Below are positions 1-64,000 of a DNA stretch of 64,000 nucleotides, piece by piece; positions within the stretch are counted from its first letter, which is position 1; each line of letters opens with the position of its first letter. A program made the position numbers and the translations under genes. Below the pieces are notes generated by a model, which was given only the letters and a program-made list of their open reading frames with translations, was not told the origin of the DNA and did not search any database. This DNA comes from Paratrimastix pyriformis (Eukaryota; Preaxostyla; Paratrimastigidae), in contig JAPMOS010000057.1 in the NCBI GenBank assembly GCA_027972325.1, positions 172,032-236,031 of the forward strand, given 5' to 3'.

Positions 1-3000
1 CACCATCCCCTTCTCTTCCCATTCTCTTCCCCGGCTGCAGATCCACAACATCCTGCAGCTGACCCATCCCCAGCTGGTGCAGGAATTCGTGGGCCACACG
101 GATGCCGTCACCCAGGTGGCCCTGCTGGCCCCGCCCCAGGGCCCCATGATGTCCGTCCCCCACACCCAGTCATCATAGCCATCAGCACCAGCACCGGCAC
201 CGGCAACAGCATCCAATCATCATCAATCAGCAGCACCAGCGCCGGCACCGGCACCGGCATTCAATCATCATCATCATCATCATCATCATCATCATCATCA
301 TCATCATCATCATCATCATCATCATCATCATCATCAATCATCAATCATCATCATCTTCACCATCATCAATCATCATCAATCATCATCAATCATCATCAAT
401 AATCATTCCCCCCCCTTCAGGATCGTCTCGGCATCGAAGGACTACCGTGTGCATCTGTACGACTGTGCCTCGCTGCGCCGGGTGGCCTACTTCGACTGCC
501 AGGGCAGGTCCGTTCCCCACCTCGGGCGTTCCATTTTGCCCTTTGTGCTTGATTTCTGCTCGGGGGGGTCAGAACTTTGTGGTGCTTCTTCTTCCCAAGT
601 TCGCGCGCAAAATGGGTCATTGGAGAGTCCGGACCGATCAACACCTTGACTCACACACACAACATCAACATCAACATCGTTTTTTTGTGGGTCTTGTGTG
701 CCCCTCTGCCCCCTTGTTGTCCGATGAATCGGCCGGTTTGCTCCACACATACACACACACACACACACACACACCTCATCCCTTTCCTTCTTTCCAGCGT
801 GCAATCGCTTGCCGTGCACCCCTCGCTGGGCCTGATCATCGCTGGTGGCACCGACTACCCCATCAAGGGTCCGCCGTCCCCCCCACTTTTCTGGGCATGG
901 TATGGTGTGGTTGGGGGCAACGGGTAATGGACACGTGCGTTCTGTGTCGTGCAATCATCAGCACCATCCAATCAGCATCATCCAATCATCAGCATCATCC
1001 ATTCATCAGCATCCATTCATCAGCATCCATTCATCAGCATCCATTCATCAGCATCCAATTCCATCTCCTCTTCCCCCGGGCAGGCTTCTCGCTGATGACC
1101 GGGCCGAGTCAGTTCCGCCGTGTGGCCGAGTGGCAGGGCCACTGCGGGGCCGTCAACGCCCTCGCCATCTCACCCGACGGCAAGCTCATGTGCAGGTCCG
1201 CACACAGAATGAGTCATATGCACGCTCGTATTGAACACGATATGTATCGATCGACGGCAAGCTCATGTGCAGGTCCGCACACGTATGGAGTCATTGGCAC
1301 GCGCATATGCACGCTCGTGTTGGCCTTCGATCCTCATCCATCCGATCTTCATCAGCATCAGCATCAGCATCAGCATCAGCATCAGCATCAGCATCAGCAT
1401 CATCCGATCATCATCATCATCATCACCCAGTCATCATCATCATCAGCATCAGCATCATCATCACCCAGTCATCATCACCATCATTATCATTATCATCATC
1501 ATCATCATCATCATCATCATCATCATCATCATCATCATCACCCAGTCGTCATCATCATCGGCATCGGCATCGGCATCGGCATCGGCATCGGCATCGGCAT
1601 CGGCATCCAATCAGCATCGGCATCGGCATCGGCATCGGCATCCAATCATCATCATCCAATCATCATCATCCAATCATCATCATCCAATCATCATCATCCA
1701 ATCATCATCATCCAATCATCCAGTCATCATCAGCATCAGCATCACATCAGCATCAGCATCAGCATATCGCCCGCCCGGCCCACCATCCGATCGTCATCGA
1801 TCTCCCACCCACCCCCCACCCCAGTGCCGGGTATGACTTCAACCTGAAGGTGTGGCCCGTGCATGCGGACGTGACTCGGTACCATGACCCCGAGAACATT
1901 GTCGTCCACCGGCCCTCGGATGAGCTCGATGTCCACGGGGGTCGCATCACCTCCCTGGCCTTCGACGCGTCGGGCACGCGGATGGCCAGCTCGGGTCCGT
2001 GGTGATGGTGTTCATGTGATGGTGTTCATGTTGGCTGGATGTGATGGTGGTGGTGATGACTGTATGGTGGTGAGTGATTGATTGGACGATGATGATGGTT
2101 GGGCATCCGGATGGCCAGCTCGGGTCCCCGTTGTTGATGACTGGATGGATGATGATGTTGATGTTGCAGATGTTGGTAGATGATGTTGATGACTGCATGG
2201 CGGTGCTGGTGATGATGATGTTGCTGATGGTGATGACCGGATGGTGCTGATGTTGACGATGATTGGATGATTGGACGATGATGATTACTGGTGCCTTGGA
2301 TGATGGTGATTGCTGGTGCCTGTATGACGATTGGATGAGGAGGAGGGAGCAGGAGGAGGAAGGAGCAGGAGCAGGATAGCTGGAGGAGGTGTGATCCGGG
2401 CCATGAAGGTGTCTATTTTTGTTTTTTTGCGACGACCCATAACTTTTCCGGGCCGTGGACCTCTTGAAGAGACCGTCGCGATTGGTCGTGTTTTGCCAGC
2501 CACCTTCGGGTGGTCGGAAGATGAATTTTCTTGAACTTTCTCAAGTCAGGGGTAACCCTTTTTCTCTTGTTCCCGTGAAATTAAAACAATTCCGAGCGGC
2601 GAGTGGGCGTCACTCCTGCTTCTCAAATCAGGGCTCGGTGAGCTGCTCAAGGAGGGAAAAGCGAAAGGCTGTCCGAAAGGGCGTGGCGACACAGACTTTG
2701 GAATTTCCCACACGATCCGACCCTCCCCTCCAGCCCGGCCTGCCAAGGGTCTCAGCTCACCCTCCACCCACCTCTCTCGTCCCGCCTCCCCCCTGGCCTG
2801 GCCACCCGCTCGCTCTGCAACGGCGCTGCCGCCGCCGCCGCCGCCGCCGCCCCGACTGCGCCGACTGCGCTGAAACCCCACAGCCACCGATGTCAGTTCG
2901 CCATCCCCACCCATCGCCACTTGCCCTGCCCTGCCCTGCCCGTGCCCTGCCCTGCCCGTGCCCTGCCCGTGCCCTGCCCTGCCCGTGCCCTGCCCGTGCC

Positions 3001-5402
3001 CTGCCTGCCTGCCGCCCCATCCTCGGCGGCCTGTCCTCACCCCACTTCTCCGCCCTGCCTCTCTGCCCGCACGACCACCACAGCACACGATCATCGTCTA
3101 CAGCGTGTCCGGCAGCCACGTGCGCCCGCTGTACACCATCCGCAGCCTGCATCCGGACGCGCCCTCGGCCCTGCCCGGGGCCCACGATTCGGTGGTCAGC
3201 TGTGTCTGCTGGGGCCGCGGGCCCAGCGCCGGGCTGCTGTTCAGCAGCTCGTGGGATCGCACCATCAGCGTCCGTACAACCCTCCAACCCTGAATATTCG
3301 ACGTGTGTGGTATATGCCAGCCAGCAGCAGCAGCAGCAGCATCATTCAATCAGCATCATCCAACGCCATCATCATCATCCAATCAGCATCATCATCTCAA
3401 ACATCATCATCCAATCATCATCATCCAATCATCAGCATCCAATCATCAGCATCCAATCATCATCATCCAATCATCAGCATCCAATCATCAGCATCCAATC
3501 ATCAGCATCCAATCATCAGCATCATCCAATCATCATCCAATCACCATCCAATCATCATCCAATCATCCAAACCTGAAGATTCGACGTGTGGTAGATGTCA
3601 TCATCACGGGCATGGATCGCACCATCAGCATTCCCGTCACCCTCCAATCCTCTCGCATCATGATCAGCAGCAGCAGCAGCAGCAGCCACAACAACAATAA
3701 CATCCATCCATCCATGTCTACCAGCCACACCTAGCGAATATGTCAGCATAATTTCATCGCCACTACTCCCAATCATCAGGATCACCCGACCCGATCACCC
3801 AATCACCCAATCACTCGATCATCATCCATGGTGCGACAATGGTGATGGTATGTCTCCACAGATCTGGCAGCCGGACCCGCGCGGGGCCCCGGTGGCGCCC
3901 ATCCGGAAGTACGCCGGCAACCACCACGCCCACATCACCCAGGTCAGTGCACCCCCCGCACCCCCCCGCGGCAATGAACACATCGATCGCAAATCGCGCT
4001 ACTGCGGTGGCTGCCTTCGCCGTCATCCATTCATCTTATGTCTGGCTGTCGGCTTGGCTGTCTGTTCCGCCTGTCTGTCTGTTCCGCCTGTCTGTCTGTT
4101 CCGCCTGTCTGTTCCGCCTGTCTGTCTGTTCCGCCTGTCTGTCTGTTCCGCCTGTCTGTCTGTTCCGCCTGTCTGTTCCGCCTGTCTGTCTGTTCCGCCT
4201 GTCTGTCTGTTCCGCCTGTCTGTTCCGCCTGTCTGTTCCGCCTGTCTGTCTGTTCCGTCTGTCCTGTCTGTCCGATCTGCCTGTCTTTGTCTGTCTGCCC
4301 GGCGCAGCTGTCCGTGAGCCGGAGCGGCGCCCACCTGGTCAGCGTCGATGCCGAGGGCGGCGTCTTCTGCTGGCACGCGGGCCCCAACCCGATGGGCTGT
4401 GTGTCCAAGTACCGCTCCCGCGTCGGTCCGCTGCTCCTGTACAGCCATTGCCACCCACCACCATCCAATCATCCAAACATCATCATCCAAACATCATCAT
4501 CATCCAATCATCATCCAATCATCATCCAATCATCATCCAATCATCATCCAATCATCATCCAATCATCATCCAATCATCATCCAATCATCATCCAATCATC
4601 ATCATCATCATCATCATCAGCAGCAGCAGCAGCAGCAGCATCAGCAGCATCCAATCATCCACATCCAATCATCCACATCCAATCAACATCAGCATCATCA
4701 GCATCCAATCTCATCATCGTCCGCCTCTGCTGCCTCTCCTGCTTGCTGGTGGTCAGAGGGCGCCATCAGCTGCTGCGCCGCCGGAGAAAACGAGTTTGTC
4801 ACCGGGTCCGAGGCCGGTCCGTCAACATCCCCCCCCTCCTGCCCCTGCCCCACGTCTCCCGTCGACATCCCCCCTGGCTGTTACCCTCTGATCAACCCCG
4901 GATGGCTCCCTGATTTGATTGATATCATTTTGTTTTTTCAAACTTGCAACGCTTTTTTTTTGGTTAGGTATGGTGCACCTGTGGCCTCTGCCCACCCCTG
5001 CCCGCCAGGCCAACTTCGTGCCCGCGGCGGAGATGCCTGATGAGGCCCGCGGCCACGGCACCCTGCCCCTGGCCGGCCATGTTCCCCTGGTCACGGGGGT
5101 CCACGCGGCGAGCGTGGCCGCCCTGGGCGGGGTCGGACCCACCATGCAGATCGCCCGCCCCGGTCTGTGACCACCACCCCCAGCATTCAAAAAAATCTCA
5201 TGTGGCTATCCCCCCCGGTGTTGATGTTGATGCAGGCCCCGTGCCACCCTCGCAGCCGGCACCTCCGATGTCGCCCCGTCCCCGGGCAGATGGTCCCCGG
5301 GGGGCAGATGCTCATGGTCCCCGCGACCCCCGCCACGGCACTGGGCCCGGCCGCTCAGGCTGCCGGAATGATGGTCCGCCAATCTGCCTCCGCCAACACT
5401 GA
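1..5402 (+). CDS. WD40-repeat protein, 5' end outside window
   Basis: A multi-exon WD40 beta-propeller gene whose start lies upstream. Supported exons: 41-150, 421-507, 798-868, 1084-1195, 1825-1994, 3084-3269, 3862-3942, 4308-4425, 4757-4816, 4968-5162 and about 5235-5402. Typical WD blades are readable: GHTDAV followed by IVSASKDYRVHLYD, an LMCSAGYDFNLKVW blade joined across the 1.2-1.8 kb intron, SSWDRTISIWQ joined across 3270-3861, and a late MVHLWPLP strand. The C-terminus is rich in Met, Pro and Gln. Donors are almost all GTCCG/GTCTG. The junction between exons 1825-1994 and 3084-3269 does not keep phase, so a short exon is probably missed. The last exon has two plausible frames, so the stop may be at 5402 or 5466. 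A propeller scaffold role is likely; I do not recognise the family. Confidence 0.7.
265..345. repeat. (ATC)n microsatellite in intron
   Basis: Near-perfect ATC array with ATCA/ATCC-type interruptions on both sides, filling the intron between the first two visible exons of the WD40 gene. Confidence 0.9.
1340..1755. repeat. Compound ATC / AGC / GGC microsatellite in intron
   Basis: Blocks of CATCAG, ATC, GGCATC and CCAATCATCATC units in succession within one WD40-gene intron. They give long artificial His/Ser/Ile reading frames in all three frames and are not coding. Confidence 0.9.
4050..4270. repeat. Pyrimidine-rich minisatellite (CTGTCTGTTCCGC units)
   Basis: About 17 variable copies of a 9-13 nt CTGTCTGTTCCGC-type unit directly upstream of the acceptor at 4307. 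It forms a long polypyrimidine-like tract in the intron. Confidence 0.85.
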
Positions 5403-63944: not shown

Positions 63945-64000
63945 CTTTTGGGTGGGATGGTGCGGGGGCGGAGGAGGTGGGTGGAGAGGGGAGGAGAGGG

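Follow-up and report, generated by a model that had tools for sequence, protein, structure and literature searches.

Duplicated exon edges in the introns of Paratrimastix pyriformis and a putative GTCYG donor code

The window analysed here is a 64,000-nt stretch of the Paratrimastix pyriformis genome (C449:172032-236031 of a 56.06-Mb, 495-contig assembly) in which segments of exon, together with the adjacent splice site, recur as direct repeats inside the neighbouring intron. Chaining the predicted exons yields recognisable proteins, including RTF1 and lysine 2,3-aminomutase, both supported by matches to solved structures, and what we take to be a WD40-type gene, a GTF3C2-like gene, a kinase and an LCAT-like gene. 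This recurrence of exon edges is genuine and more frequent than chance would allow. We consider it likely that the copies arise by ordinary local tandem duplication occurring throughout the repeat-rich introns, tolerated at exon edges and followed by drift, and that the copied sites belong to a non-standard GTCYG donor class matched by U1.

Duplicated edges and the genes that carry them

An initial annotation had listed 12 groups of coordinates at which an exon edge recurs in the adjoining intron. All were read, with one junction of each aligned, and a direct-repeat copy is present at every one (Table 1); four further copies are marked there as unlisted. Near 31310, where three upstream copies had been claimed, two are seen and the third is not. 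The units read of the 47-nt minisatellite at 58379-58924 also contain CCGGTCCG.

Exon boundaries derive from a home-made predictor rather than from transcripts: a coding model trained on the window and on positions 100001-300000 of contig C112 (hereafter C112) scored exons between a YAG acceptor and a GTCYG-weighted donor, with reversed sequences as decoys. Internal exons scoring at least 16 number 56 on the plus and 25 on the minus strand of the window (decoys, 5 and 6) and 173 and 119 in C112 (decoys, 21 and 26). This exon-level scoring replaced a full gene-structure hidden Markov model, which failed to converge on any consensus with a flat donor and retained many short doubtful introns with informative donors. 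Scanning two complete frames of window 1-14400 against Pfam returned no match. Many of the proteins predicted in C112 are presumably related LRR-like products, accompanied by what we recognise as Gypsy-like and reverse-transcriptase pieces, and one stretch of this type resembles part of the window.

Table 1. Duplicated exon edges and homology-supported genes of the window; a slash within a motif or position pair marks the exon-intron junction, and unlisted means missing from the initial annotation.
Feature	Coordinates	Strand	Copies and remarks
Donor 1195/1196 (CAG/GTCCGC), WD40-type gene	1175..1308	+	Read and aligned; pair 1175-1231 and 1252-1308, spacing 77, 88% identity, copied donor intact
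Donor 1994/1995 (CGG/GTCCGT), WD40-type gene	1969..2242	+	Unlisted; aligned; tandem copy at 2098 with a spacing of 129; its donor reads GTCCCC
Donor 3269/3270 (AGC/GTCCGT), WD40-type gene	3254..3778	+	Unlisted; aligned; decayed copy at 3614 with 16 identical exon nt, copied donor gone
Donor 12543/12544 (CAA/GTCCGT), GTF3C2-like gene	12527..12802	+	Read and aligned; copies at ~12634 (by eye only, GT lost) and 12704 (GTCCCC)
Donor 13072/13073 (TGG/GTCCGT)	13055..13160	+	Unlisted; copy spacing 61, copied donor GTCCTT
Acceptor 14819 (CAG/TGC)	14685..14855	+	Upstream tandem copy, spacing 85, copied CAG retained
Donor ~30278-30279 (GCG/GTCTGG)	30249..30625	+	Unlisted; copy 30465 inside minisatellite
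Acceptor edge near 31310 (CTAG)	31116..31368	+	Upstream copy 31222-31283, 85 nt away, 97% identity; additional partial copy ~31116 (by eye)
Donor 31497 (ATG/GTCTGT)	31452..31772	+	Tandem copy, spacing 86, grading into 77-nt array
Donor 47329 (ACG/GTCTGC)	47303..47532	+	Two more copies, spacings 92 and 94, all three donors intact
Acceptor 49503 (CCGCAG/AGT)	49381..49521	+	Upstream tandem copy, spacing 81
RTF1-gene acceptor (ACAG/TGG), exon from 52490	52234..52504	+	Upstream copy ~215 nt off, mostly microsatellite between
RTF1-gene acceptor 54104 (CAACAG/GAG)	53966..54125	+	Upstream copy, spacing 90, copied site AAG
RTF1-gene donor 54226 (CCT/GTCCGT)	54184..54431	+	Head-to-tail copy, spacing 123; then minisatellite and third partial copy near 55000 (by eye only)
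RTF1-gene acceptor 55296 (CCACAG/GCG)	55029..55343	+	Upstream copy 55106, spacing 184, one difference in 48 exon nt
Donor 58385 (CCG/GTCCGT)	58379..58924	+	In first unit of 47-nt minisatellite, 11.6 copies
RTF1 (Paf1-complex) homologue	52490..55400	+	Exons used: 52490-52599, 53003-53130, 53446-53550, 54104-54225, 55296 onward
Lysine 2,3-aminomutase homologue	62105..63281	-	Gap-free alignment to 2a5h

Frequency, distribution and fate of the copies

Each 40-nt junction stretch (30 exon and 10 intron nt) of 162 high-scoring internal exons of the window and C112 was compared with its own intron, a local score of at least 16 counting as a match. A third sample comprised 21 other loci, picked by small nuclear RNA (snRNA) genes, microsatellites and two chaperonin genes, and is not random. 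Donor edges matched their own intron in 8/53 cases in the window, 4/80 in C112 and 2/57 in the 21 other loci, and acceptor edges in 3/48, 3/81 and 1/56 (pooled, 14/190 donors and 7/185 acceptors); the 21 loci gave one more acceptor match at score 13, and their match at locus L009 may be a repeat inside coding sequence. The controls stayed empty at the threshold. Exon interiors, taken 40-80 nt from the donor, gave 0/36, 0/46 and 0/40 (0/122 together), edges against foreign introns gave 0/2640 for donors and 0/2560 for acceptors (window and C112), and the permuted control of the 21 loci gave 0/570, with one match at a score of at least 13. Ranked against other introns, p was at most 0.02 for 3/30 testable donor edges in the window and 3/54 in C112, for 2/33 and 6/47 acceptor edges and for 0/11 and 0/22 exon interiors, these p-values being coarse and less strong, as only a small number of other introns have the length needed for comparison. 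The recurrence of exon edges in adjoining introns thus withstands controls across the window, C112 and the 21 loci. Its reach, initially put at most of the multi-exon genes, had been overstated: copies occur at about 2-15% of junctions, depending on sample and side, and the window is richer in them than the other samples.

We then profiled 40-nt stretches by the offset of their start from the junction, again against their own intron (window and C112), with permuted introns providing the expectation. On the donor side, matches are absent at -110 (0/67), -90 (0/82) and -70 (0/107), appear at -50 (4/120), -30 (12/132) and -20 (13/125, 0.2 expected) and continue at 0 (25/117), +10 (29/112), +30 (29/103), +50 (37/100) and +70 (31/99). 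The mirrored acceptor profile reads 0/58, 0/75, 0/101, 1/114, 6/128 and 8/119 (0 expected at -20) over the same exon offsets, and 12/112, 14/110, 16/106, 20/100 and 21/95 over the intron offsets. At -30 the expectation is 0 on both sides. Matches are therefore lacking well within exons and reach roughly one stretch in three (donor side) or one in five (acceptor side) within introns, duplication density rising on both sides without a peak at the junction. Because of this climb, the exon edges look like the spill-over of an intron-wide process. Compared directly, the first intron-internal stretch exceeds the donor edge in repeat frequency by a factor of 2-4 (16/49 versus 8/53 in the window, 13/63 versus 4/80 in C112). 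At equal distance from the junction, own-intron matches are about twice as common on the donor as on the acceptor side in these two samples.

Twenty-five copy pairs were aligned, comprising 20 that score at least 13, four of which are weak or atypical (32346, 170024, 40176 and 102085, the last with a spacing of 773), and five from the initial list or found by eye. In 16 of the 25, at least 60% of the spacing is taken up by the match (median spacing, 117), so the sequence between copies is mainly the rest of the duplicated unit; the microsatellite said to be usual there is seen by eye in a few cases (52260/52490 and 55106/55296). Exact head-to-tail units are found at 54184-54307 and 54307-54431 of the window and at 69521-69606 and 69604-69689 of the C112 stretch. 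Direct head-to-tail copies spaced near unit length, at a density that is not junction-specific, place these repeats among intronic tandem duplications and minisatellites.

Substitutions were analysed in 24 pairs, 32346 being dropped as its copy ends short of the donor. The 39 substitutions in frame-known exon parts (21 pairs) divide into 17 synonymous (44%) and 22 nonsynonymous; by our own arithmetic, 26% would be synonymous under random change and about 41% for a constrained exon paired with a free copy. Copy spacings leave remainders of 0, 1 and 2 after division by three in 8, 6 and 10 cases, without bias to multiples of three. The copies thus show neither the frame nor the coding constraint of duplicated or alternative exons. 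The RTF1 gene has four duplicated edges and, spliced with one copy per edge, aligns with human RTF1 over query residues 2-189 at 51.8 bits with a few gaps of 1-3 residues. The intronic copies look like passengers, and we infer that the exon-side site is the one picked by the spliceosome.

Donor sites and the U1 5' end

Copied donors read GTCCG or GTCTG. A count of donor motifs at the ends of coding islands, made without a splice model, placed GTCTG 17 times at 3' ends (2 inside, 17 outside, 5 at 5' ends), GTCCG 19 times (13, 16 and 10) and GTGAG 10 times (0, 4 and 6); it was too blurred to decide, and homology-anchored junctions were used instead. These lie inside alignments to solved structures, were chosen to lessen circularity and comprise 18 introns of four genes: seven in CCT-eta (434 residues, gap-free), five in CCT-zeta (three one-residue gaps, none at a junction), four in RTF1 (a one-residue gap adjoining the first junction) and two in lysine 2,3-aminomutase (gap-free; donors GTCTGT after 63149 and GTCTTG after 62592). 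GTC begins 18/18 of the anchored donors and GTCYG 17/18, GTCTTG being the exception, and GTRAG is found at 0/18, in a set that is not choice-free, the predictor being weighted towards GTCYG and the CCT genes having been spliced partly by eye. Position +4 is T in nine and C in nine. One extra CCT-eta intron, placed by eye at the edge of the aligned part, has the donor GTTGGA.

The U1 5' end is generally regarded as nearly invariant. The Rfam U1 model detected eight loci here, seven at 56.5-60.2 bits and one at 50.8 (E-values 3.7e-13 to 2e-10), all below the Rfam cut-off of 69.5, after scoring of 41 of 992 first-look candidates. All eight genes found start ATACAGACCTTGCTTGG, their 5' end being AUACAGACC rather than AUACUUACC and hence complementary to GTCTG, and much of the U1 consensus beyond it is retained in the alignment. 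A pattern with the two changed bases left open returned the same eight loci with AG in all; it needs this genome's following bases and would miss a U1 with a different body. No canonical U1 was found among the scored candidates or with this pattern. The canonical U2-type pairing of a GTRAGT donor with U1 ACUUACCU is thus not what these data contain, since anchored donors lack GTRAG and ATACAGACC is found in 8/8 U1 genes. An upstream motif near GTCCCATAATTTTTCC is found at the U1 and U6 loci as well as at those copies of U2 and U5 that were read, giving the U1 loci the look of real genes.

The remaining snRNAs are those of a U2-type spliceosome: U2 (up to 160 bits), U5 (up to 60.8) and U6 (96.7) score above their cut-offs, with U1 below. 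The U6 ACAGAGA box is canonical in the four loci read; for U2 and U5, of which a single copy each was read, the branch-recognition stretch and the loop, respectively, look canonical too. The altered U1 5' end is complementary to AAG/GTCTGTAT. Its duplex energy with CAGGTCTGT is -12.1, versus -7.9 for canonical U1, and with CAGGTAAGT it is -4.5, versus -13.1. Taken together, the sequences suggest that 5' splice-site recognition has probably been recoded, U5U6 of U1 having changed to AG and donors correspondingly from GTRAG to GTCYG, with U2, U5 and U6 left canonical. If so, the U1-donor code would have undergone a natural compensatory swap.

Near the WD40-type gene, window 2434-2449 follows a T run and resembles the GTCCCATAATTTTTCC upstream motif with two mismatches, 0.32 such occurrences being expected by chance. 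No convincing Rfam match lies near it, and window 2498-2640 folds no better than shuffled sequences.

Origin of the copies and related systems

We propose that tandem duplications would accumulate throughout introns, by replication slippage or unequal exchange as the presumed molecular step. A duplicated unit of ~50-200 nt that straddles a donor or acceptor would reach up to ~50 nt into the exon and would be tolerated, since the mRNA does not change as long as splicing continues at the exon-side copy. An equal event inside an exon would alter the protein and be removed. The intron-side copy would then drift.

Duplication targeted to splice junctions or promoted by them, for example through repair at exon edges, and acting as the main route of intron growth, would explain the donor-edge copies at -30 against an expectation of zero, and the greater richness of the donor side. 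Match frequency keeps climbing into the intron, however, with no junction peak, and intron-internal stretches exceed donor edges, which makes such targeting unlikely. From the initial proposal that introns expand by junction duplication, repeated tandem duplication across junctions survives, but nothing singles out the junction itself (0/107, 12/132 and 37/100 at -70, -30 and +50). It is also very doubtful that the copies are retained through use, either as alternative donors and acceptors or as zero-length recursive splice points that aid the removal of long repeat-filled introns. Nine of 14 copied donors keep GTCYG, YAG is kept in 6/10 copied acceptors as scored by script (of the remaining four, two had mis-set boundaries and keep AG by eye), the copy of 1195 reads CAG/GTCCGC, an acceptor and a donor motif together, and exon parts diverge less than drift alone predicts, though pair selection biases this comparison. 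Set against these are spacings without multiple-of-three bias, a synonymous count (17/39) that fits one free copy, AG/GT at 1/14 donor junctions with a copied donor (1195), and the RTF1 homology, which requires a single copy of each edge. The choice of near-identical sites that the initial annotation offered to the spliceosome is possible in principle, but spacing and substitutions give no sign of its use. Mis-assembled repeats at exon edges, finally, are an extremely improbable source even though repeat-rich introns are generally hard to assemble: aligned copies differ by 0-33%, with substitutions and indels, and are present on several contigs, and this divergence argues against an assembly artefact.

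Several observations weigh against the reading of the copies as tolerated, drifting tandem duplications with GTCYG donors matched by U1. Copy identity is 576/619 in exon parts and 1206/1482 in intron parts (24 pairs), a 2.7-fold higher divergence of intron parts versus about 1.6-fold under free drift; exon-part identity and donor retention (the 9/14 figure) are both biased upward because pairs were chosen by junction match. Conversion of the copies, or constraint on them, may contribute. Nine of the 25 pairs are not clean tandem units (partial, decayed or distant), and one C112 pair has a spacing of 773 and a coverage of 0.05. The intron gradient is partly compositional, albeit mostly not, with permutation expectations at +50 of 3.75 (donor) and 1.85 (acceptor), and at -30 the donor side (12/132) exceeds the acceptor side (6/128). 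Exon models are weak outside the homology-anchored genes, conservation in the alignment is weak around the last RTF1 junction, and the rate in C112 may not represent host genes, since members of an LRR-like gene family and pieces of retroelements abound in that stretch. For the donor code, CAGGTCCGT, which resembles half of the anchored set, gains almost nothing from the altered U1 (-7.4 versus -7.0 with canonical U1), and CAGGTCAGT pairs more weakly with it (-7.5 versus -9.0). These energies suggest that +4 is tolerated as a mismatch or read another way.

Duplications that cross splice junctions belong to a known kind; what is unusual is the putative donor recoding. In the Gao & Lynch type of duplication, as outlined in PMC3443670 and PMC4974935, a junction-bearing segment is likewise duplicated in tandem and its copied splice signals are available, whereas here the copies lie and drift inside an existing intron and no new intron or exon is seen. 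PMC4974935 also mentions an 83-bp tandem duplication within an intron that left gene structure unchanged. Under the AGGT model of intron birth (Rogers 1989; Hellsten 2011; as described in PMC3443670 and PMC4974935), a duplicated exonic AGGT makes both ends of a new intron. That model shares with our data the duplication of a short splice-signal segment, but in our case the duplicated segment includes an intron end from the outset, and the low count of AG/GT, with no sign of new introns, speaks against the AGGT birth raised in the initial annotation and against AGGT serving as both splice sites. A fifteenth donor junction, 32346 (AAG/GTCCGT), stands outside the 14, its copy ending short of the donor. 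Introners, the same element in many unrelated introns, were likewise set aside, as edges matched no other introns within the sample. Intronic mini- and microsatellites resemble the copies in their head-to-tail units, several copies and flanking microsatellite; they differ in that here a splice site and coding sequence form part of the array edge, the 47-nt array being the clearest case.

Donors off the canonical consensus are also described for Fritillaria (PMC13326754) and diplonemids (PMC12621601). According to these papers, the U1 5' end is strictly preserved in Fritillaria despite its unusual introns, and the diplonemid S. specki has one alternative U1 alongside a classical one. By contrast, the eight U1 genes found here share one altered 5' end, with no canonical copy within the scope of our searches. 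A correlation of donor variation with complementary U1 sequence had not been definitively shown, according to PMC10599564, and a limited literature search found no earlier report of a GTCYG donor code. A genome with donor and U1 both changed would make this correlation directly testable, and the putative donor recoding matters more than the duplications. Gene finders trained on GTRAG would probably mis-annotate a genome with recoded donors. In the duplications one can follow how introns take up tandem duplications spanning splice junctions, and they make plain that an intronic copy of an exon edge does not have to mean intron birth or splice choice.

Three CCT-eta introns (locus L049, from 1220, 1633 and 2026) also contain an element of ~125 nt with TGATGA and CTGA boxes. 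It gave no usable Rfam match; by these motifs it looks like a box C/D snoRNA, and nine matches to it are listed genome-wide.

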